Below, piece by piece: positions 2,730-49,475 of a DNA stretch of 64,000 nt. A model generated the notes under the pieces. It searched no databases and was not told the origin of the DNA. It saw nothing but the letters and a program-made list of their open reading frames with translations. Source of the stretch: Peristeroidobacter agariperforans (GTDB taxonomy: Bacteria; Pseudomonadota; Gammaproteobacteria; Steroidobacterales; Steroidobacteraceae); contig NZ_RYFW01000002.1 of NCBI RefSeq assembly GCF_004138335.1, positions 1,097,501 through 1,161,500 of the forward strand, in the 5' to 3' direction. Position numbers and translations under genes: made by a program. Positions within the stretch are counted from its first letter, which is position 1. Each line of letters starts with the position of its first letter.

Positions 2730-3314
2730 ATGACGATGTTCCACGACGGCAACCGTGAGTTGCAGCAGCACTTTGCATCGGAGGCGTTGGCCGACCGGCT
2801 GGTCGAACGACTGCGCCACTCAGAATTCACGGAGGAGGACACGGCGTTCATTCATTCGGTGGAGTTCTTCTTTCTGGCCACCGCCGCTGCCGACGGCCAA
2901 CCGGATTGTTCCTTCAAAGGCGGACCGCCCGGTTTCGCGCACATCGTGCGGCCTGACCTGTTGGTCTGGCCGGACTACGACGGCAATGGGATGTTCAAGA
3001 GCCTTGGAAACATCAGCGTCAATCCTTTCGTAGGATTGTTATTCATTCGAATGGGCGAGGCGCCGAAGCGCTTGCGCATCAACGGACGCGCACAGGTCGT
3101 GCTCGACGATCCGCTGATGCAGGAGTTCGTCGGCGCGCAGGCACTAGTGCGCGTCACGCCGATCGACATCTTTCCAAATTGCCCGCGTTACATTCCCGAT
3201 CTCGCGGCAGGCAAGCCGTCGCCGTATGTTCCTCGCGCCGGCGAGCCGCCCGTCGAGCCTGGCTGGAAATCGAATCCGGCGTGGAAAGAGTTGGTTCCGT
3301 CGCGGAGGGCGTGA
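2730..3314 (+). CDS. pyridoxamine 5'-phosphate oxidase family protein
   Basis: 194 residues with the split-barrel FMN-binding fold of the PPOX family: an N-terminal segment FFFLATAAADGQPDCS, then GFAHIVRPDLLVWPDYDGNG and the strand LRINGRAQVV are typical of the putative flavin-dependent PPOX subgroup. Start chosen at ATG 2730 because GCGGAGG lies just upstream (2716-2723) and family homology begins soon after; the longer reading at 2643 lacks both. It stands alone between the GDYXXLXY gene and yfaZ. The substrate cannot be told. A larger PPOX relative sits at 22.2-23.2 kb. Confidence 0.82.
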   Translation: MTMFHDGNRELQQHFASEALADRLVERLRHSEFTEEDTAFIHSVEFFFLATAAADGQPDCSFKGGPPGFAHIVRPDLLVWPDYDGNGMFKSLGNISVNPFVGLLFIRMGEAPKRLRINGRAQVVLDDPLMQEFVGAQALVRVTPIDIFPNCPRYIPDLAAGKPSPYVPRAGEPPVEPGWKSNPAWKELVPSRRA

Positions 3315-3559
3315 GAGCAGCGCGAGCCCGTCCCGGTGGCGTTGCGCTGCGAGCTGTCACGGTCGAGCCCGTCTCCCGCCCTCGTTCTACCGAGCTGCGC
3401 TTAGGTGGATTCAAGGTTCTCGCGCGGTTGCGTGGGCAGCGGGCGCAGTCTTTGTACTTATAAATCTCGGATCGCGCTTGCACCATCTCGCGTTGCCGGA
3501 ACCTTTCTTTTCGTAACTCATTGGCTATGCATCCGGCCATCATGAGATGGAGAAGAAAC

Positions 3560-4156
3560 ATGCGAAGCTGTCTCGGATTCCTGGTGCTCATGGGGGCCGC
3601 TGGCAGCGCCGCTGCCCAGAGTGAAAATCCAGGGGATATTCCAACCGGTCACGAAGCCCAGGTGCAGCTGAGCAATGACACGCTGCAGCTCAAATACATC
3701 TCCGGCGGCAAGAAAGTGGGCGTCGACAACAGTCGTTTCTCCGGTGCTTTCTTTCTGAGCGAGGAGCGAGACATCGTGCTCAGCGCGGGGCTGGTGTTTC
3801 CGGTGGACTTCGATTTCGGCCGGCTCAGCGTGCTGGTCGGGCCCCAGGCCTATGCGGCGCTGCTGAACGATGAGAACAACGACGTGATGGCGTTGAGCCT
3901 GGGCGCGGAGTTGCGCTTCGTTCTCGACAAGGATCTCGACCTCGCAGTCGCCGGCCACGCCTACTATGCGCCCGATATCATGACGTTCGGATCTGCGGAC
4001 AGTCTCACCGACCTGAGCGCGCAGGTGGAGATTCCGCTCTCTGACCAGATGAAAGGATTCGCAGGCATGCGCTGGTTCGAGTTCGACCTGACGGAAGGCG
4101 GCGGAACGCAGACGCTGCAGGAGGAAATCTTCGTCGGGATTGGCTACCGCTTCTAG
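3560..4156 (+). CDS. YfaZ family outer-membrane protein
   Basis: 198 residues with a clear signal peptide (hydrophobic LGFLVLMGAAGSAAAQ, cleavage after AAAQ region) and alternating amphipathic strands ending in FVGIGYRF, a terminal aromatic residue as expected of an outer-membrane beta barrel. It matches the YfaZ family, whose function is unknown. ATG 3560 is preceded by GGAGAAG; upstream ATGs at 3521 and 3527 lack a ribosome site. Its stop codon overlaps the convergent stop of the diguanylate cyclase gene (4153-4156). Confidence 0.8.
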   Translation: MRSCLGFLVLMGAAGSAAAQSENPGDIPTGHEAQVQLSNDTLQLKYISGGKKVGVDNSRFSGAFFLSEERDIVLSAGLVFPVDFDFGRLSVLVGPQAYAALLNDENNDVMALSLGAELRFVLDKDLDLAVAGHAYYAPDIMTFGSADSLTDLSAQVEIPLSDQMKGFAGMRWFEFDLTEGGGTQTLQEEIFVGIGYRF

Positions 4157-5151
4157 CTGGACACTTCGAGCAAGGTGCGAGGTTCGGTGGCCGGAGTCGC
4201 CGTCACCTGATTGCGCCCGAGTCGCTTGCTTTCATACAAACCGCGATCGGCTTCATCGAGCACGTCCAGTGTCGTTTGCGGCTCCATGCTGATGCGGTTC
4301 GATAAACTGCCAATCCCGATGCTGACCGTGATGCTCAGCCTGCCCGCTGCAGTGACAAAGGGCGTGCTCTCGATCGCTGCACGAAGTCGCTCGCCGGCGA
4401 TGGCTGCGTCATCGCGACTGGTGTGAGGAAGAATCGCGGCGAATTCCTCGCCGCCAATCCGAGCGAGCACATCGTATTCGCGAGGTAAATTCTCTCTCAG
4501 CGTGGTCGCCAGACGTCGCAGGACTTCGTCGCCGACATGGTGGCCGTACTGATCGTTCACTTGTTTGAAGTGGTCGGCATCGATGAGCAGCACAGAGATG
4601 GGCTCCGCAAAGCGACGAGCGCGCTTGAACTCGGCATTGAGCCTTCGATCGAAGGTGCGACGGTTGGGCAGCCCTGTCAGCGGATCGGAGGCGGCCTGGC
4701 GGGCCTTGCTTTCCAGCGTGCGACGCAAGCGCTGCTCCAGCGTCACGATGCGCTCCGCCACTCGCAAACGCGCGCGGAGCTCGGCAGGGGGAGCGCCCTT
4801 GTGAAGATAGTCATCGCCGCCGGCATCGAGCGCCTCGACCACGCCATCCTCCTGGTCGTGGCCGGTCATCACGATGATATAAACATAGCCGGGCCACTTG
4901 CCGGCGCGCAGCTTGCGACACAGCGACAAGCCGCCCATGCCGGGCATCTGCACGTCGGTGATCACGATCGGGCAGAAGAATTTTCGCATGTCCTCGAGCG
5001 CGGTCTCGGCGCTCGGGCAGGAGCGGGTCTGAAAGCCTTGCTCCTGGGTGTAGATGTTTACTAAGTCCTGAATGGCCTCATCGTCGTCCACGATCAGAAT
5101 CGTCGGGCGCGACGCCGGGTTGAGCAGCGGAATCGGATCGGTCGGCTTCAT
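4153..5151 (-). CDS. response regulator with GGDEF domain (diguanylate cyclase)
   Basis: 332 residues. The N-terminal receiver domain (about 15-130) has the acidic pocket VDDDE and phospho-acceptor Asp66 in TDVQMPG; the C-terminal GGDEF domain (about 155-320) has an active GGEEF at 233-237. The inhibitory-site RxxD is present as REYD at 224-227, exactly five residues before GGEEF, so product inhibition by c-di-GMP is expected. No membrane segment, so it is cytosolic. PleD/WspR-like logic: phosphorylation by an unlinked kinase would stimulate c-di-GMP synthesis. No cognate kinase lies beside it. It is convergent with yfaZ. Confidence 0.9.
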   Translation of the reverse strand: MKPTDPIPLLNPASRPTILIVDDDEAIQDLVNIYTQEQGFQTRSCPSAETALEDMRKFFCPIVITDVQMPGMGGLSLCRKLRAGKWPGYVYIIVMTGHDQEDGVVEALDAGGDDYLHKGAPPAELRARLRVAERIVTLEQRLRRTLESKARQAASDPLTGLPNRRTFDRRLNAEFKRARRFAEPISVLLIDADHFKQVNDQYGHHVGDEVLRRLATTLRENLPREYDVLARIGGEEFAAILPHTSRDDAAIAGERLRAAIESTPFVTAAGRLSITVSIGIGSLSNRISMEPQTTLDVLDEADRGLYESKRLGRNQVTATPATEPRTLLEVSS

Positions 5152-11100: not shown

Positions 11101-12174
11101 TCAAGGCGTATTGCCGTAGCCGATGGCGCCGTTGCAGTGCATCCACTCGCTGTTCGAGCCGCCACCACAGCTGCCGTTGGCGTACAGCCCGGTGTTATAA
11201 CTTTGGGCTTCGGATTGACGCGTCTGGCCGTTCACCTGGATGTAGTCGACCTGCACGTCGCGGTTGCCACTGTCGTTGGTGTAAGCAACAGTGATGCCGC
11301 CGCTCAGCGTGGTCGTCGCCGTGAAGTTTTGCATGCTGGTCGAGAGCGACCAGGTCGCAACAGTGCTGTTGTTGACGCGCAGGGAGATGGATTCTCCGCC
11401 AACGGTGCCGCGTGCGCGCACGAGAATGGTCTTGCTGCCGCCACCACCGCTGCTACTGCTACTACTGCTGCTGCTGCTGCTCGAGGAGGATGAGCTGCTG
11501 CTACCGCTACCACCAATGGTGATATCTGAGCTGCCGCTGCTCTGATAGCCCTCGGTCGCCAGGACCATGTAGTTGAACGTACCGAGATTCAGCCCATAGC
11601 TGCGCCACGCGTCGAAATGATTGCCGGTGGTGATGGTGCCGCCGACCCGTTTCTGCTGTCGCACGCTCCAGTACTGATAAAACGTGCGAGTGCCTTCGAT
11701 GGACGGCTGATTGACCCGCTGCGTGCGATAAACATCGTACGTGCCGCCATCGCTGGTGACGGTGCCGAGGAAGCCCTCGCCACCGGGCGGGCGCCATGTG
11801 CCCCAGCTATCGACGATGTAATATTCCACCAGTGGATTGGTCGTCCATCCATACAGGGCAAGATACGAGTTGCCCGACGGATTGAAGCTGCCCGAATAGG
11901 TCACAGTACGGCGTCCGCCGGTTTGCCAGCCCTTGCCGCCGACCCAGTTGCCGACATTGCTCCATTGCGACGTGTAGCGTCCGCCGGACTGCAAGGTGAA
12001 GGAGACCGAGCCGCCGCCGTCGGTCCAGAACGAGTAGTAATAGCCGTCGTGAGTGCCGGTTTGACTCGAGGTCAAAGTCTGGGCGTTCGCCGCCGAAGTG
12101 CAGAGCGCGGCAGCGCAGGCGAGTGCAGAACAAAGCGTGCCGGCAACGGTAAATCTTCTAGAGATTCCATTCAT
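11101..12174 (-). CDS. secreted endo-1,4-beta-xylanase, GH11 with C-terminal CBM60
   Basis: 357 residues. Signal peptide 1-31 (ends SAANA). GH11 beta-jelly-roll domain about 36-215 with both catalytic glutamates: nucleophile Glu117 in [12 protein letters not shown] and acid/base Glu208 in [12 protein letters not shown] linker of about 18 consecutive serines follows, then a domain starting [17 protein letters not shown] and ending [13 protein letters not shown], which matches calcium-dependent xylan-binding CBM60. This architecture and the poly-serine linker are typical of Cellvibrio-type plant-wall degraders, so acquisition by transfer is possible. GGGGGAA upstream of ATG 12174 is a good ribosome site. 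It should hydrolyse xylan outside the cell. Confidence 0.95.
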
Positions 12175-12348: not shown

Positions 12349-13929
12349 TTATTGCCGGAGTGCTGCCCAATCCAGGTTGAAGCGGGCGAGATATTTCTTC
12401 AGCCGATCGCTGTCGTTCACTGCCCGGCGACGTGTTCGCGACGCTGCAAACAATCTCCTGCCGGCTTCGGCCAGAGTCGTACACGAACGGCACGTCGCGA
12501 TGACCGCGTCCAGTTGCAGCCGATCGAACAGATCGATGTCGGCGAGCTGGTCCGCCGGCAGCAGCGATTCGAGATTGCTGTGCGCCTGTTCCGGCTGCCA
12601 GGCCTGTCGCAGCCGGTCGATTTCATCCTGCACCACTTCGACCGTGATCTTTCCGTCTTCGGCGAGCGTGGCCATACGCATGATGGAGGCGGACAGCTCT
12701 CGGAAATTGCCGTTCCATACCGCTGCCGGTGATGTTGCGAATCGCTGGTACTCGCGCCGGGCTTCGGCGTTGAAGCGCACATTGGCGTCGTTGTCCTGCG
12801 CGAACCGCTCGAGCTCGTAGTCGATGTTCGGCTCGATATCTTCACGGCGCTCGCGCAGTGCCGGCATCTCGAAAACCCACAGATTGATTCGAGCGAGCAG
12901 ATCGTCGCGGAACCGTCCGGCCGCGACGGCGGCGCGAAGGTCGCGGTTCGTGCCGGCGATCAGCTGAAAGTCGCTTTGGACTTCCTTGTCCGAGCCCATC
13001 GGCGCAAAGCGCTTTTCTTCGGTGGCCTTGAGCAGCATGGTCTGCTCGTCGATGCCCAGCTCGCCGATTTCGTCGAGGAACACGACGCCGCCGTGAGCCT
13101 TGCGCAGCAGGCCGGCGCGATCGGTTTGGGCGCCAGTGAAGGCGCCTTTCACATGACCGAACAGCGTGGAGAGCGCCGCGTCGCCGCGCAGAGTCGCGCA
13201 GTTCACTTCGACGAATTCGCCCTGGATCTGATGGCGGGACTTCTTCAGTTCGTAGATGCGCCGAGCCAGCGTCGACTTGCCGGCGCCGGTGGGGCCGTTG
13301 AGCATCAAAGGCGCTTTGGAGCGCGCAGCTACGCGCTCGATGCGCGCGATCATCTGGTTGAACTCGGCATTGCGCGTCTTGATGCCGGACTTCAGGAACT
13401 CGGTGCTCTCCTGTTTCTCACGCGCGAAGCGGGCGCCGATCTGGTTGTAACGCGACAGGTCGAGATCGATGAGCGAGTACGAGCCGACTTCCCGCAAGCT
13501 CTGCTTGCGAGGCGGTGACGTTTGCAACAGCACCGCCGGAAAATAGCGTGCCTCGGTCAAAAGAAACATGCAGATCTGCGCGACGTGCGTGCCCGTGGTG
13601 ATGTGGATGAGATAGCGCTCGCGCTCCGGATCGAAGGAATACTGGCGCGCGAATTCGTGCAAGCAGCCGTACATCTCCTGGAAGTCCCACGGATCCTTGG
13701 GGTCGCAGAGGTGCAGGTTCACCTTCGTTTCGGGTGAAGCGGCGGCGATGTCCTCCTGCAGTTGCTGAGCCAGGCGAAGGTGAGGGCGCGCGTGAAGCAT
13801 CTCGAAGCGATCGATGACCAGATCTTCCTGCTGGCAGATCGAAACACTGGGACGCCACTTCTCCCAACGGCCCGGCCCGCCGCCACTGTCCAGCATCGAA
13901 CCCAGGAAGCCGATGACCACGGTTTTCAT
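12349..13929 (-). CDS. rtcR: RtcR, sigma54-dependent activator of the RNA-repair operon
   Basis: 526 residues. The N-terminal CARF-like ligand domain (about 1-180) has the hallmark HITTGTH at 109-115. The AAA+ domain (about 185-430) has Walker A GPTGAGKST at 212-220, the sigma54-contact loop GAFTGA at 262-267 and Walker B FLDE at 284-287. A C-terminal helix-turn-helix follows (region TLAEAGRRLFAASR). RtcR of Salmonella is known to bind 5' tRNA fragments ending in cyclic phosphate and then to activate rtcBA with sigma54. Here it is divergent from rsr and faces a perfect sigma54 promoter. No clear Shine-Dalgarno precedes ATG 13929. Confidence 0.96.
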   Translation of the reverse strand: MKTVVIGFLGSMLDSGGGPGRWEKWRPSVSICQQEDLVIDRFEMLHARPHLRLAQQLQEDIAAASPETKVNLHLCDPKDPWDFQEMYGCLHEFARQYSFDPERERYLIHITTGTHVAQICMFLLTEARYFPAVLLQTSPPRKQSLREVGSYSLIDLDLSRYNQIGARFAREKQESTEFLKSGIKTRNAEFNQMIARIERVAARSKAPLMLNGPTGAGKSTLARRIYELKKSRHQIQGEFVEVNCATLRGDAALSTLFGHVKGAFTGAQTDRAGLLRKAHGGVVFLDEIGELGIDEQTMLLKATEEKRFAPMGSDKEVQSDFQLIAGTNRDLRAAVAAGRFRDDLLARINLWVFEMPALRERREDIEPNIDYELERFAQDNDANVRFNAEARREYQRFATSPAAVWNGNFRELSASIMRMATLAEDGKITVEVVQDEIDRLRQAWQPEQAHSNLESLLPADQLADIDLFDRLQLDAVIATCRSCTTLAEAGRRLFAASRTRRRAVNDSDRLKKYLARFNLDWAALRQ

Positions 13930-14080: not shown

Positions 14081-14096
14081 TGGCACAGCGGTTGCT
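14081..14096 (+). promoter_or_regulatory. sigma54 (-24/-12) promoter of the rsr-rtcBA operon
   Basis: TGGCAC (14081-14086), five bases AGCGG, then TTGCT (14092-14096). This matches the consensus TGGCAC-N5-TTGCW at every fixed position, with the invariant GG and GC correctly spaced. Transcription would begin near 14107, leaving about 80 bases of leader before rsr ATG 14190. The divergent regulator RtcR has the GAFTGA loop needed to activate exactly this promoter class. Confidence 0.9.
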
Positions 14097-14189
14097 ATCT
14101 CCTTCCGCGAGCAACGATTCAATCAGAACGGGCGGCGCCATGGGGGCGCCGCGGCTCACACGGAACAAACGGAACGGGAGTCGCCCATC

Positions 14190-15743
14190 ATGGCCAACAC
14201 TCAACTCTTTCAGTCGACACGCGGCGCCTTTGTGCCGGCGGCGATGGACGCGAATAGCGAAGGCGCGCCGGCATATCGGTTCTCGCCGAAGCATCTGTTG
14301 GCTCAGTACGCCGTGACCGGCTGTCTCAACAACACGTTCTACGCTAGCGGTGCGGATCAGCTCGAGCAGGTGCTGGAGCTGAGCAAGCAGCTGGATGCGG
14401 AGTTCATCGCGAAGACTGCGGTCTATGCGCGTGAGAGCGCGTCGATGAAGGACATGCCGGCGTTGTTGCTGGCGGTGTTGTCGACGAAGAGCCCGGAGTA
14501 TTTGCGTCGTGTATTCGATCGTGTGGTCGACAACGGACGCATGCTTCGTAACTTCGTGCAGATCATCCGCAGCGGCGCTGTCGGTCGGAAGTCGTTGGGC
14601 TCGGCGCCGAAGGCGCTGGTGCAGAACTGGTTGAGCTCTGCGAACGAGCGACGCCTGATCGAGGCAGCTGTGGGCAGCGATCCGTCGCTGGCCGACATCG
14701 TGCGAATGGTGCATCCGAAGCCGAACGATCCGGTTCGTGAGGCGTTCTATGGCTGGTTGCTGGGTAAGCCGTACGCGTTGGAAGCCTTGCCGCGCAAGCT
14801 GCAGGAGTACGTCGTGTATAAGTTCGACCGGTCGCAGGAGTTTCCGGATGTGCCGTTCCAGATGCTGACCGCGCTGGGATTGAAGCGAGATGAGTGGGCG
14901 ATGGTCGCCCGTCGCGGCAACTGGCACATGGTGCGCATGAACTTGAAGACGTTCGCCCGTCACGGGGTGTTCGAGATCGAGGGCATGTCACGGGTGGTCG
15001 CGGACAAGCTGCGCGATCCGGTCGCGATCGAGAAGGCGCGAGTGTTGCCGTATCAGTTGCTGGCTGCGTATCGGGCGGCGGCTGCGGGCATTCCGATGGA
15101 AGTGCGCGAGGCGTTGCAGGATGCGATGGAAATCGCGCTGGTGAACATCGGTAAGTTCGACGGCCGTGTGGTGGTGTGCCCGGACGTTTCCGGCTCCATG
15201 GCCTCGGCGATCACCGGCGTGCGTAACGGAGCGACGAGCGCCGTGCGGTGTATCGACGTTGCTGGCCTGGTGGCAGCCGCTGTGGCTCGCACCAACCGGG
15301 ACGCGTTGGTGCTGCCGTTCGAGAACTGCGTTCGTGACATCGCGCTGAACATGCGGGACTCGGTGATGACCAATGCCGAGAAGCTGGCAGCGATCGGTGG
15401 CGGTGGAACGAACTGCAGCGCGCCGTTGAAGTCGTTGAATGCGCGGAAGGTGCAGGCGGACCTGGTGATCTATGTTTCGGACAACGAGTCGTGGGTGGAT
15501 GCCCGCAAGACCGGTTCGACCGAGATGATGCGTCAGTGGGGCGCCTTCAAGGCCCGCAACCCGGCGGCGAAGCTGGTGTGCATCGACATCCAGCCGAATG
15601 GAACGACTCAGGCGATGGAGCGCGCCGATGTGTTGAACGTCGGCGGCTTCTCGGATGAGGTGTTCAATGTGGTGAACGCGTTTGCCAACGGCACGCTGTC
15701 GCCGGGTCATTGGGTGAACAAGATCGAAGCAATGATGATTTGA
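14190..15743 (+). CDS. rsr: Rsr, TROVE-domain Ro60-like RNA-binding protein
   Basis: 517 residues. The N-terminal TROVE/HEAT-repeat ring (about 25-310) includes FSPKHLLAQYAVTGCLNNTFY and successive helical repeats; the C-terminal von Willebrand A domain (about 325-510) has an intact metal site: DVSGS (Asp332, Ser334, Ser336), GGGTNCSAP and SDNES. Bacterial Ro proteins bind Y RNAs and gate RNA access to nucleases or help RNA quality control. ATG 14190 has GGGAG upstream; the open reading back to 14043 overlaps the sigma54 promoter and cannot be translated from that transcript. First gene of the operon, followed by the Y-RNA array. Confidence 0.96.
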   Translation: MANTQLFQSTRGAFVPAAMDANSEGAPAYRFSPKHLLAQYAVTGCLNNTFYASGADQLEQVLELSKQLDAEFIAKTAVYARESASMKDMPALLLAVLSTKSPEYLRRVFDRVVDNGRMLRNFVQIIRSGAVGRKSLGSAPKALVQNWLSSANERRLIEAAVGSDPSLADIVRMVHPKPNDPVREAFYGWLLGKPYALEALPRKLQEYVVYKFDRSQEFPDVPFQMLTALGLKRDEWAMVARRGNWHMVRMNLKTFARHGVFEIEGMSRVVADKLRDPVAIEKARVLPYQLLAAYRAAAAGIPMEVREALQDAMEIALVNIGKFDGRVVVCPDVSGSMASAITGVRNGATSAVRCIDVAGLVAAAVARTNRDALVLPFENCVRDIALNMRDSVMTNAEKLAAIGGGGTNCSAPLKSLNARKVQADLVIYVSDNESWVDARKTGSTEMMRQWGAFKARNPAAKLVCIDIQPNGTTQAMERADVLNVGGFSDEVFNVVNAFANGTLSPGHWVNKIEAMMI

Positions 15744-15759
15744 GGTTTGGTGCGCGCGG

Positions 15760-15841
15760 GAATGCGTCTGTGACTACATCCGGTAAATGTCAGGTCACCG
15801 ACAACCTGGTCCCGGGCGCATCGATCCAAACGGGTTTGTGC
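15760..15841 (+). ncRNA. Y-RNA array, unit 1
   Basis: Begins with GAATGC (15760-15765), seven bases, then ACTACAT (15773-15779) and GGTAAA, the block shared with units 2 and 3. A hairpin CAGGT/ACCTG (15791-15795 with 15804-15808) and a longer stem built from CGCA-CAAA with TTTG-TGCG (15817-15842) follow. Unlike units 2 and 3 it lacks a TTCRANY T loop, so it may instead supply the Ro-binding stem of a composite Y RNA. Unit borders are set by the repeat and are approximate. Confidence 0.6.
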
Positions 15842-15958
15842 GAATGCCGGCAGGACTACATGGGTAAGCCGCAAGGCGACGGGGTTCAAGTCCCCGACAG
15901 GCTGCAAGGCCTGAAAGAGTCCTGCCAAACGTTGTCGCACATCGGTGCTGTCGCCGAC
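15842..15958 (+). ncRNA. Y-RNA array, unit 2 (YrlA-type tRNA mimic)
   Basis: GAATGC at 15842-15847, ACTACAT at 15855-15861, then GGGTAAG. GGCAGGA (15849-15855) pairs perfectly with TCCTGCC (15920-15926), forming a seven-base-pair acceptor-like stem. Inside it are GCC-GCAA-GGC (15868-15877), a canonical T arm CGGGG-TTCAAGT-CCCCG (15880-15896) and a hairpin CAGGC/GCCTG (15898-15913). A closed cloverleaf-like domain without a real anticodon is what YrlA-type bacterial Y RNAs look like. Position between rsr and rtcB matches the yrl genes of Salmonella. Confidence 0.82.
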
Positions 15959-16029
15959 GAATGCTGATGGAACTACATCGCTAAGGACGCCGGGGTCGCG
16001 GGTTCGAATCCCGTCCGCTCCAACACTGT
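15959..16029 (+). ncRNA. Y-RNA array, unit 3 (tRNA-mimic module)
   Basis: GAATGC at 15959-15964 and ACTACAT at 15972-15978, then TAAGG; spacing between the two boxes is identical to units 1 and 2. A canonical T arm GCGGG-TTCGAAT-CCCGT lies at 15998-16014, 19 bases after ACTACAT (18 in unit 2). TGGA (15968-15971) can pair with TCCA (16019-16022), giving a short acceptor-like closure that ends TCCAACA, close to but not a CCA end. Automatic searches could mistake this for a partial tRNA or tmRNA tail. Confidence 0.72.
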
Positions 16030-16104
16030 GGGGCGGTAGCTCAGAGGTAGAGCACGGGTTTCATCGACTGCTTGGTCGTCGGCGCCGGGATCGACTGGAT
16101 TATT
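16030..16104 (+). ncRNA. tRNA 5'-half-like element upstream of rtcB
   Basis: Starts GGGGCGG-TA-GCTC-AGAGGTA-GAGC-A (16030-16054), a perfect tRNA acceptor 5' strand and D arm with all standard spacings. CGGGT-TTCATCG (16055-16066) follows as an anticodon-arm 5' side with CAT at the anticodon place, but the 3' side pairs only partly. Where the T arm should be there is GTCG/CGAC (16075-16078 with 16092-16095) around a GC-rich loop with no TTC motif, and no CCGCCCC acceptor strand or CCA follows. It ends beside the rtcB ribosome site. Either a decayed tRNA gene or a purposeful 5'-half mimic. Confidence 0.6.
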
Positions 16105-16116
16105 GGAGTGAAGGAC

Positions 16117-17337
16117 ATGAGCGAAAAGAATCACGACACGATGAACGTCGAGGGCGGCGCCCACGTCAAGATGTGGACGCAGGGCGTGCCGGTCGAGGAC
16201 GGGGCCAAGGAACAGCTGCGCAAGACGGCGAAGATGCCGTTTATCTTTCATCACATCGCAGTGATGCCGGACGTGCACGTTGGCAAGGGCTCGACGATCG
16301 GCAGTGTCATCCCGACGCTGCAGGCGGTGATACCTGCGGCGGTCGGCGTCGACATCGGCTGCGGCATGATCGCGGCCAAGACGACGCTGCAGGCGTCCGA
16401 TCTTCCGGACAACTTGAGTGGCGTGCGTTCGGCGATCGAGCGGGCTGTACCGCATGGCAAGTCCCCCGGACGGCACGACCGGGGCGCGTGGGATCGGCCT
16501 CCCGACAACGCGGATGCGGCGTGGGGCAAGTTACACGAGGGCTTCAAGCGGATCACGGACAAGTACCCGCACCTGCAGAAGACCAACAATCGTATGCATC
16601 TCGGTACGCTTGGCACCGGCAATCACTTCGTCGAGGTGTGTCTCGACGAAGAGCAGTCGGTTTGGTTCATGCTCCATAGCGGGTCGCGTGGCGTCGGCAA
16701 TGCCATCGGCACGCACTTCATCGAGCTGGCCCGGCGGGACATGCAGCAATGGATGATCAATCTGCCGGACCGCGACCTGGCGTATTTCCCGGAGGGCACG
16801 CAGCACTTCGACGACTACGTCGAGGCGGTGGAGTGGGCGCAGAACTTCGCGCGATTGAATCGTGAGGTGATGATGCAGAATGTGATCGCAGCCGTGCGCA
16901 AGGCGATTCCGAAGTCGTTCGAGAGTCACATCGAGGCGGTGAACTGTCATCACAACTATGTGAACCGGGAGCACCACTTCGGTCGCGATGTGCTCGTGAC
17001 CCGTAAGGGAGCCGTGAGCGCTCGAAAGGGCGAGCTCGGCATCATTCCGGGAAGCATGGGTGCGCGTTCGTACATCGTGCGCGGCCTCGGCAATGAGGAC
17101 AGCTTCCATAGCTGCAGCCACGGTGCGGGACGGACGATGTCTCGCACCGAGGCTCGGAAGCGCTTCACGGTGGAAGAACATCGTGCGGCAACGGCGGGAG
17201 TGGAGTGTCGAAAGGACAAAGAAGTGATCGACGAGACTCCCGCTGCTTATAAGGACATCGACGCGGTGATGAACGCACAGCGAGACCTGGTCGAGGTGGT
17301 CCATACGTTGAAGCAGGTCGTGTGCGTCAAGGGATGA
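16117..17337 (+). CDS. rtcB: RtcB, RNA-splicing ligase
   Basis: 406 residues, the normal length. It joins 2',3'-cyclic or 3'-phosphate RNA ends to 5'-OH ends using GTP and Mn2+. Visible signatures: DVHVGKG, GVDIGCGM (metal Cys), LGTLGTGNHFVE, LHSGSRG, and the guanylylated histidine His335 in SCSHGAGR. ATG 16117 has GGAG at 16105-16108; the open reading to 16072 would run into the tRNA-like element. Third part of the operon after rsr and the non-coding RNAs; its stop overlaps the rtcA start. Confidence 0.97.
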   Translation: MSEKNHDTMNVEGGAHVKMWTQGVPVEDGAKEQLRKTAKMPFIFHHIAVMPDVHVGKGSTIGSVIPTLQAVIPAAVGVDIGCGMIAAKTTLQASDLPDNLSGVRSAIERAVPHGKSPGRHDRGAWDRPPDNADAAWGKLHEGFKRITDKYPHLQKTNNRMHLGTLGTGNHFVEVCLDEEQSVWFMLHSGSRGVGNAIGTHFIELARRDMQQWMINLPDRDLAYFPEGTQHFDDYVEAVEWAQNFARLNREVMMQNVIAAVRKAIPKSFESHIEAVNCHHNYVNREHHFGRDVLVTRKGAVSARKGELGIIPGSMGARSYIVRGLGNEDSFHSCSHGAGRTMSRTEARKRFTVEEHRAATAGVECRKDKEVIDETPAAYKDIDAVMNAQRDLVEVVHTLKQVVCVKG

Positions 17338-18350
17338 AAATGATCGAGATCGATGGATCCAAGGGCGAAGGCGGCGGGCAGATTCTGCGCTCGTCGCTTT
17401 CGCTCGCCATTTGCACGCAGCAGCCGTTCCTGATTACGAATATTCGCGCCAATCGCGATAAGCCGGGGCTGTTGCGTCAGCATCTCACTGCGGTCAAGGC
17501 CGCGGGGGAGATCTGCAATGGAGAACTGACCGGCGCCGAGATCGGCAGTCGGGAGCTGACCTTCAAGCCGGGCCGGTTGAAGGGCGGCAATTATTCGTTT
17601 GCGATCGGCACGGCGGGCAGCTCGACGCTGGTGTTGCAGACCGTGCTGCCGCCGTTGTTGACCGCGGAGGAGCCCAGCGTCGTTCGGATCACTGGCGGAA
17701 CGCATAATCGCGGTTCGCCGCCGTTCGATTTCCTGCAGCGAGCGTTTTTGCCGTCGCTCGCTCGGATGGGTGCGAAGGTGGAACTCGAGCTGCGAAGCTA
17801 CGGCTTCTACCCGCGAGGCGGCGGCGAGATCGTCGCCAAGATCGCTCCGTCTGAGTTGTCGGCGCTAACGCTGACCGAGCGAGGCGATCGAGTGCGGGCT
17901 TACGCCGAAGCGTACGTCGCGGCGTTGCCGATCAATATCGCGCAGCGTGAGTTGGAGGTCATCGGCCATCGCTTGAACTGGTCGCAGGATCAGTTGTTGC
18001 TGCGCGGCCTGTCGAATGACATGGGACCGGGCAACGCCGTGACGATCACCGTCGAGCACGAGCATGTCACTGAAGTGTTCACGGGCTTCGGCGAGCGAGG
18101 CGTTCGAGCAGAGGCGGTTGCGGCTGGCGCAGTCGACGAAGCTCGCAACTACATTGCAGCGACCGCCGCGGTCGGCGAGCACCTGGCGGATCAGTTGCTG
18201 TTGCCGATGACGCTCGGGCAGGGCGGATCGTTTACGACGACGGTCGTCACGGAACATCTGCGATCGAATGCATCGATCATCGAGACGTTCACGTCGAAGC
18301 GCGTGTCGATCAGCGAGTTCGACGGCGGCTTCTCGGTGCGGGTCCGGTAG
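17334..18350 (+). CDS. rtcA: RtcA, RNA 3'-terminal phosphate cyclase
   Basis: 338 residues, usual length. It converts RNA 3'-phosphates to 2',3'-cyclic phosphates with ATP. Motifs: IDGSKGEGGGQILR at the start, IRANRDKPGLLRQHL, GGTHNRGSPPFDF, YGFYPRGGGE, and the adenylylated histidine His308 in TEHLRSN. ATG 17334 overlaps the rtcB stop (ATGA), so the two are translationally coupled. In Salmonella RtcA makes the cyclic end that activates RtcR, so it would close a feedback loop here too. Last gene of the operon; convergent with the DUF6494 gene immediately after. Confidence 0.97.
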   Translation: MKMIEIDGSKGEGGGQILRSSLSLAICTQQPFLITNIRANRDKPGLLRQHLTAVKAAGEICNGELTGAEIGSRELTFKPGRLKGGNYSFAIGTAGSSTLVLQTVLPPLLTAEEPSVVRITGGTHNRGSPPFDFLQRAFLPSLARMGAKVELELRSYGFYPRGGGEIVAKIAPSELSALTLTERGDRVRAYAEAYVAALPINIAQRELEVIGHRLNWSQDQLLLRGLSNDMGPGNAVTITVEHEHVTEVFTGFGERGVRAEAVAAGAVDEARNYIAATAAVGEHLADQLLLPMTLGQGGSFTTTVVTEHLRSNASIIETFTSKRVSISEFDGGFSVRVR

Positions 18351-49400: not shown

Positions 49401-49475
49401 CGGTAGGGACGACCCTACCGCGCTTTCACCTTCCGGGGACGACCCCTCTAACAGCGCGAATGCGCACCCCGGAGG
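49401..49475 (+). promoter_or_regulatory. guanidine-II (mini-ykkC) riboswitch
   Basis: Two hairpins with the diagnostic ACGR loops: CGGTAGGG-ACGA-CCCTACCG (49401-49420, eight perfect pairs) and GGGG-ACGA-CCCC (49435-49446), placed directly before a guanidinium-exporter gene. In the ligand-free state bases 49430-49438 (CTTCCGGGG) can pair over nine positions, one G-U, with 49467-49475 (CCCCGGAGG), which would hide the Shine-Dalgarno GGAGG at 49471-49475. Guanidine binding to the second hairpin would free it. Identification rests on the loops and gene context; the switching mechanism is my inference. Confidence 0.92.

Follow-up and report, generated by a model that had tools for sequence, protein, structure and literature searches.

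The window, the whole 64-kb stretch of Peristeroidobacter agariperforans DNA analysed here, contains a gene for a bacterial Ro60 protein (Rsr), followed by three predicted Y RNA units and two RNA-repair genes:

12349-13929, minus strand: rtcR, divergent, encoding a sigma-54 activator with an RtcR sensor domain (Pfam RtcR 1.2e-81, Sigma54_activat 1.7e-48).
14081-14096, plus strand: putative sigma-54 type promoter TGGCACAGCGGTTGCT upstream of rsr (consensus match only).
14190-15743, plus strand: rsr, bacterial Ro60 with TROVE and vWA domains (Pfam vWA_Ro60 6.5e-18, TROVE 3e-8).
15752-15819, plus strand: unit 1, predicted class S Y RNA with a two-part stem and no tRNA-like part (R2 45.9 bits; no Rfam match).
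15834-15944, plus strand: unit 2, predicted class M Y RNA without a D arm (R3 69.2 bits; Rfam YrlA 32.9 bits).
15951-16085, plus strand: unit 3, predicted class L Y RNA, a Y stem bearing a complete, circularly permuted tRNA (R1 117.7 bits; Rfam YrlA 61.1 bits).
16117-17337, plus strand: rtcB, RNA ligase (Pfam RtcB 4.9e-132).
17340-18350, plus strand: rtcA, RNA 3'-phosphate cyclase (Pfam RTC 1.3e-80).

R1, R2 and R3 denote covariance models of the L, S and M classes, which were run on the window and on 80 related loci; the window's own scores are not independent, because its three units stand in the model seeds. The rsr query used for searches covered 14187-15743, one codon more than the annotated gene, and the rtcB start codon (ATG at 16117) was assigned by hand, the domain search having used 16120-17337. 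The gene order, with rtcR divergent and then rsr, three Y units, rtcB and rtcA, is that of an RNA-repair operon under the predicted control of RtcR, its promoter being named by consensus. Measured against what we take to be the sigma-54 consensus, TGGCACAGCGGTTGCT is the sole match of this type within the window (0.14 expected; present in 14 of 100 shuffles). Since the window's genome alone carries an Rsr of this kind in a sample of 296 genomes of its own order, the operon was probably acquired.

The original prediction started from three copies of GAATGC-N7-ACTACAT with fixed spacing, which it read as tandem Y RNAs. The copies start at 15760, 15842 and 15959 on the plus strand and the 64 kb hold no other; none is expected by chance and three were reached in 0 of 100 shuffles, which bears out the motif. 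The seven-base spacing is a family feature, found in 154 of 170 units having a GAATG(C/T)...(A/G)CTAC block, and the fixed seven bases form the 5' arm of the inner stem. The TAA(A/G) said to follow the motif is indeed present in all three window units and fails as a feature of the family: only 5 of 171 called units carry it, the window's three among them, which rules out a TAA(A/G) block as an element. In unit 3 it sits within the anticodon-like loop. Reading the sequence by eye confirmed a T arm in units 2 and 3 and its absence from unit 1. The block end at 15978 was set too short, as unit 3 extends to about 16085, 31 bases ahead of the rtcB ATG.

The reading of the block as tandem Y RNAs is upheld by matches to the YrlA model, by the neighbouring Rsr and RtcB genes, by covariation and by the presence of units in the corresponding position in relatives. 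The proposed search with the Rfam YrlA model (RF02553) succeeded in part: unit 3 (E 7e-13) and unit 2 (E 1e-4) were matched below the curated cut-off of 69 bits, and unit 1 gave no match, so that all three window units miss the cut-off; at gathering scores no Rfam family matched anywhere in the window's array. As to the features expected of RF02553, a Ro60 gene lies beside the RNAs (vWA_Ro60 and TROVE domains are encoded directly upstream), and a basal stem with an internal loop is present, its GA/UC invariant and both its stems covarying in the chosen sets of all classes. According to excerpts of PMC4726728, it is the lower stem of the Y RNA that Rsr binds. The tRNA-like domain with T, D and acceptor arms is found in unit 3 only; unit 2 has a T arm (15881-15895) and a closed acceptor-like hairpin (15898-15913), and unit 1 has neither.

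These comparisons support an array of three bacterial Y RNAs between rsr and rtcB, one from each of the predicted classes S, M and L. The classes share a stem composed of an outer stem with a GA/UC end, AUGC facing a CUUG-like strand, an inner stem, and ACUACAU or ACUACAG. They differ in their heads: S has none, M has a D-armless mini-tRNA of T arm and acceptor, and L has a complete permuted tRNA, whose opening lies in the anticodon stem, on its 5' strand. Covariation, which had been proposed as a check, was counted for the named structures on plain MAFFT alignments of hand-chosen units, and the Y RNA reading withstood it, each class covarying in its chosen set. The L set (A1; 39 of 64 distinct units, every one of them insert-bearing) is 96.8% paired with both-side changes in 20 of 34 pairs, the S set (A2; 32 of 39 candidates) 91.6% with 13 of 16, and the M set (A3; 30 of 36 candidates) 96.0% with 13 of 23; because the sets were hand-picked, the covariation holds for these seed sets. 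For each class the values were reached by 0 of 500 shuffles, and slid structures drop to 27-54%. The D stem is invariant throughout A1 and so uninformative, and the T and D arms of L units are conserved by construction because their patterns defined the L units. Each window unit folds into a long stem. Folding of 15743-15835 (unit 1) gave -41.1 kcal/mol and a z score of -2.74, and that of 15836-15943 (unit 2) a z score of -4.28; for unit 3 the z score was only -1.82.

Rfam results were available for 13 of the 80 related loci. YrlA exceeds its cut-off in 12 of these 13, at 14 places that all bear the L label; the remaining one, L026, has no YrlA match above the cut-off. The top match (L036, 80.5 bits) is an L unit that lacks the anticodon arm, and the L unit of L013 is also a tRNA to Rfam (29.8 bits, cut-off 29). 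None of the S and M places in the 13 loci is above an Rfam cut-off.

With Rsr as query, a tblastn search of genome contigs yielded 514 confirmed relatives, and the best 80 were retained. Downstream of rsr, at least one Y unit is present in 79 of these best 80 loci, at least two in 78 and at least three in 64; L039 is the sole locus among them without any, and the largest array holds eight units. Three modules, which had been presented as an exceptional number, are thus ordinary in this clade, and the ordered S-M-L trio is common: the three are adjacent in that order in 42 of the best 80 loci. A unit best scored by the L model at 40 bits or more is present in 71 of the best 80. The recurrence of S, M and L in constant order gives the suggested division of labour among the units indirect support. 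An Acidobacteriia record (L008) closely resembles the window in layout, with unit starts at 9, 89 and 206 bases from the rsr stop as compared with 9, 91 and 208. In the unit table behind these counts, rounded scores were merged by place, matches lying upstream of rsr were filtered or omitted, and many same-place rows of the lower-scoring model are left out; a few class labels are near ties, and at two places (L061 6940 and L072 7025) the S model scores best against the label given.

The head of unit 3 can be divided into the parts of a tRNA, in permuted order:

15979-15992, plus strand: predicted anticodon arm (numbering anchored on the T arm; family statistics).
15998-16014, plus strand: T arm.
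16015-16036, plus strand: acceptor stem of seven pairs, with the 3' strand at 16015-16021, AACACTGT closing, and the 5' strand at 16030-16036.
16039-16057, plus strand: D arm, then nucleotides 26-29, three of which (27-29) reach over the Y stem to pair with 41-43.

The anticodon arm of unit 3 would comprise C30 and G31, the loop CUAAGGA (32-38) and CGCCG (39-43), with the triplet AAG at 15983-15985. Under the numbering anchored on the T arm, nucleotide 29 comes from the strand after the D arm and two of the three hairpin pairs form; the anticodon stem of five base pairs thus has two pairs in the hairpin and three with the strand after the D arm, across the Y stem. The D arm has G18 and G19, and all seven pairs of the acceptor stem show both-side changes in A1. 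ARAGORN called no tRNA over the window, as expected of a permuted tRNA. After rotation it calls unit 3 a tRNA-Leu(aag), and the predicted cloverleaf is then complete, the control with shuffled arms being a weak one. The minimum free energy of unit 3 is -58.4 kcal/mol as compared with -45.9 kcal/mol for the tRNA-like form with the split stem, other local pairing being preferred. The closed acceptor stem (16030-16036 with 16015-16021) contains G3-U70, an alanine identity pair, despite the triplet AAG.

L units run from the inner stem through ACUACA, anticodon hairpin, variable loop and T arm to the acceptor 3' strand, a loop, the acceptor 5' strand, the D arm, nucleotides 26-28 and the inner stem again. 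In a first parse, 53 of 64 distinct L units had an insert of at least 19 nucleotides, and 45 of these 53 formed all three pairs 29-31/39-41 with seven bases enclosed. A second parser was applied together with units found with R1 in further genomes (46 loci given, 33 parsed, 13 not) and yielded 96 L units, with room for the arm in 73 distinct units and none in 23. All three hairpin pairs form round a seven-nucleotide loop in 61 of the 73, compared with a mean of 3.2 and a maximum of 11 for shuffled inserts. U33 is present in 66 and a purine at position 37 in 71 of the 73 arm-bearing units, and positions 34-36 hold 27 different triplets. The seven-base loop follows from a register fixed from the T arm, which a slide control supports: when the partner was slid by 1-3 bases, only 0-3 of 73 units kept the pairs. 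Among the added units alone, the three pairs form in 17 of 21 and U33 is found in 19 of 21; these units test the stem more cleanly than U33, which is not fully independent in them because R1 held a loop sequence profile and no anticodon pairs.

Pair 31-39 is CG in 38, AT in 24 and GC in 8 of the 73 units, and pair 27-43 is CG in 44, GC in 23 and AT in 3; the tertiary pair 15-48 is G-C in 84, A-T in 6 and other in 6 of the 96. The case for the arm is comparative, because neither nearest-neighbour folding nor RNAalifold favours it, the latter leaving the arm out on the L alignment. Rotated L pieces were called as tRNAs by ARAGORN in 70 of 73 cases and unrotated pieces in 0 of 73. The rotation says little on the anticodon arm itself, because rotated pieces with a shuffled arm were mostly still called (mean 55, maximum 62 of 73 over 20 rounds). 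By sequence, a complete circularly permuted tRNA, anticodon arm included, lies within many L units.

Permuted tRNA genes place the 3' half ahead of the 5' half, and L units have in common with them the order 3' half, linker, 5' half. L units differ in that a long Y stem opens the anticodon stem and in that the acceptor ends are closed by a loop, with no free CCA end; the acceptor closed by AACACTGT in unit 3, like the position of the Y stem at the anticodon stem, speaks against a working tRNA as its product. A weak match of unit 3 to the permuted tmRNA (RF04321; 24.7 bits, cut-off 47) spans 41 bases only and is explained by the common order of T arm and acceptor. The closest known RNA is YrlA (RF02553) of Salmonella and others, whose Y stem (CGAAUGC/CUUGUCG) carries, like L, a permuted head of T arm, acceptor and D arm. 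The Rfam consensus of YrlA differs from L in having no anticodon arm, so that most of the arm of unit 3 is aligned as a 14-nucleotide insertion. A second Y RNA of the Salmonella operon, YrlB, may be like class S or M. Units 1 and 2 differ from YrlB and the other rsr-side Y RNAs in reaching no Rfam family at the gathering score, and class M is set apart from the Y RNAs beside rsr by a T arm without a D arm. According to excerpts of PMC7790460 and PMC9879122, YrlA stands beside rsr in an rtcBA operon, as here, and YrlB is added to it in Salmonella (PMC9879122), comparable to the multiple units of the window; the part of a review available (PMC8394870) names only D, T and acceptor arms for YrlA. 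The operon and YrlA-type RNAs are already known. In the literature found, which was available in part and to which the primary Y RNA papers do not belong, neither an anticodon arm nor S-M-L arrays are named for Y RNAs; the novelty of the anticodon arm is unproven.

The anticodon loop is the fast part of the unit in two groups, by the sequence differences within each. Among 15 Comamonadaceae L units, mean entropy is 0.85 in the loop as compared with 0.16 in the remainder of the unit; from position 32 to 38 it is 0.91, 0.00, 1.55, 0.92, 1.23, 0.35 and 0.97, positions 32 and 38 thus being about as variable as the triplet. Pairwise, positions 34-36 of these 15 units differ by 0.55 and fourfold sites of rsr by 0.23. 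In the comparison of 48 survey loci besides the window, the 57 pairs with a fourfold difference of 0.1-0.2 (fourfold sites 0.16) differ by 0.51 at 34-36 and have different triplets in 42 cases, and the sole pair below 0.1 has an identical triplet; 130 of the 1,128 pairs, at larger distances, fall outside this table. The pairs are non-independent and uncorrected for codon bias and for recombination of rsr with the array, either of which could produce such a difference. On a 49-row Rsr tree (a quick tree with 12 open forks), at least 32 triplet changes are required.

Rhizobium and Shinella plasmids (20 of 54 plasmid records with a match) show another pattern. Their first L unit has GUU in all 18 parsed of the 20 records and C33 in 12 of the 18; its variable positions are 32, 33 and 38. 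In a further unit of these plasmids, which has no D arm by pattern (19 records), positions 33, 36, 37 and 38 vary, as do 6 of the 116 columns outside the hairpin. The constant GUU rules out a triplet that is hypervariable everywhere; in both groups it is the loop that changes fastest, though not always at the triplet. Across the family, 16 of 73 triplets start with A, and to our knowledge most A34 triplets are not used by real bacterial tRNAs; exact mimicry of host anticodons is therefore not the rule, and the idea that the loops derive from host tRNAs by copying was rejected. Two loci (L024 and L083) each have two anticodon-bearing units with unlike triplets, which is no evidence of a panel because 27 triplets are in play; at L079 there are two loops, both of which parse poorly.

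We give a probability of about one half to the reading that the locus makes Ro60 RNPs with graded tRNA mimicry, in which the L unit competes for anticodon nucleases. It is built on sequence comparison of the operon, the classes, their covariation, the arm, the unit order and the loop turnover; Rsr binding, separate expression of the RNAs, decoy action and resealing are steps that we infer. Anticodon nucleases would cut tRNAs, whereupon RtcR would switch the operon on, and Rsr would carry the Y RNAs. The L unit, showing a full tRNA body and a fast-changing anticodon loop, would serve as a decoy or competitor for the nucleases and, once cut, might be resealed by the neighbouring RtcB; the S and M units would act as a gate on Rsr or link it to further partners. 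In Salmonella, as excerpts of PMC7790460 report, RtcR is bound by the 5' halves of tRNAs that were cleaved in the anticodon loop and bear a terminal 2',3'-cyclic phosphate, and rsr-yrlBA-rtcBA is switched on by tRNA fragments. Its authors suggest that the tRNA-like domain of YrlA may be a competitive inhibitor of a nuclease; against a decoy, the same excerpts state that conditions which cut tRNAs gave no detected fragments of Salmonella YrlA. The 23 of 96 L units without room for the arm, together with the constant triplet in Rhizobium/Shinella, count against this reading. The conserved stem and mostly conserved U33 with fast 34-36 in Comamonadaceae, which are soil bacteria, would offer a testable handle on tRNA mimicry by Y RNAs. 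The curated YrlA model lacks such an arm, and in about half of the related operons L is directly adjoined by two further classes.

A bolder form of this proposal, which we put forward tentatively and consider doubtful, is that the permuted tRNA on Rsr is a resealable bait, offering a diversifying loop to nucleases so that the cuts spare tRNAs and are re-joined by RtcB. If it were true, the nucleases would be those of rivals, of phages or of the host's own defences, and loop turnover would mark an arms race.

Equally doubtful, to our minds, is that the tRNA-like head serves to dock Rsr to PNPase (RYPER) or to another general binder of the tRNA fold, the arm completing the fold while the triplet drifts. 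A role of bacterial Y RNAs with PNPase is published (excerpts of PMC7790460 and PMC8394870), and selection on shape only predicts what we see: U33 and purine 37 preserve the geometry of the loop, and 34-36 change. A tether to PNPase or RtcB would explain the tRNA fold as well as competition for nucleases does, and the fast loop less well: drift predicts otherwise than a difference at 34-36 above that of fourfold rsr sites in Comamonadaceae, which recombination or codon bias could nonetheless explain, and the arm-less L units manage without the part that would complete the fold. We find it improbable that the L unit is a repair adapter, bringing RtcB, RtcA or both to Rsr by a product-like anticodon arm so that tRNAs caught by the ring are sealed. 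Both genes share the operon, and breaks in the anticodon loop are proposed RtcB substrates (excerpts of PMC7790460); such an adapter, whose binding is putative, explains the fast loop no better than a tether does.

More improbable still is that the arm is a relic of an ancestral tRNA or of recombination with tRNA genes, under no selection. Arm-less L units exist, as it would have them, and the layout of tandem tRNA genes is similar to the permuted one, with weak matches to the L model. Against a relic, compensatory change keeps the stem, as seen at pair 31-39, the seven-nucleotide register and U33 are kept in most units, and A34 triplets speak against copying from tRNAs. YrlA members act as separate RNAs in print, and that the region is instead a structured rtcB leader in cis is very improbable: unit 3 ends close to the rtcB ATG, and a scan of 15650-16200 found no sigma-70-like promoter and no plus-strand terminator-like site, but the L units of relatives belong to Rfam YrlA in 12 of the 13 loci given, and across the 74 of the best 80 loci having an rtcB match after rsr the distance between the two genes ranges from 207 to 3,633 bases.

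R1 was also run on genomes of the class, where it gave matches at E values up to 0.001 in 279 of 369 genomes. Weak R1 matches were rejected as Y RNAs, since 16 of the 18 loci checked (L088-L105) hold tRNA genes, L088 and L089 holding none. At L091-L105, adjoining tRNA genes reach L-model scores of about 38-46 bits, since one gene's 3' half together with the 5' half of the next imitates the permuted layout, and neighbouring tRNA genes are a possible route by which the permuted RNAs arose. Among the matches listed, those above 59 bits come from five genomes including the window's; one of them (L088, 61.5 bits) has no GAATGC block and did not parse. At L118 (G533), at least four L-model matches lie close together (117.7, 96.5, 80.9 and 69.4 bits; five were counted genome-wide), some of them without an anticodon arm.

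Further observations concern single records. In a plasmid of Rhizobium sp. Pop5 (L169), a transposase gene occupies 3229-4416, the expected position of the Y RNA array, and because the first L unit breaks off there in the acceptor stem, the array was probably interrupted by insertion. Myxococcus phage Mx1 (L167, 4001-5650) encodes an Rsr that shares 46.6% identity with that of the window, and a tRNA-Gly lies close by; over the 2,150 bases downstream of this Rsr the pattern matches are chance-like, and GAATGC-N7-ACTAC is absent. Elsewhere in the window, an ORF at 11101-12174 on the minus strand encodes a protein resembling a GH11-type xylanase that also has a second domain and a long serine-repeat linker, and a Guanidine-II riboswitch (mini-ykkC) at 49401-49447 exceeds its Rfam cut-off with 45.4 bits.
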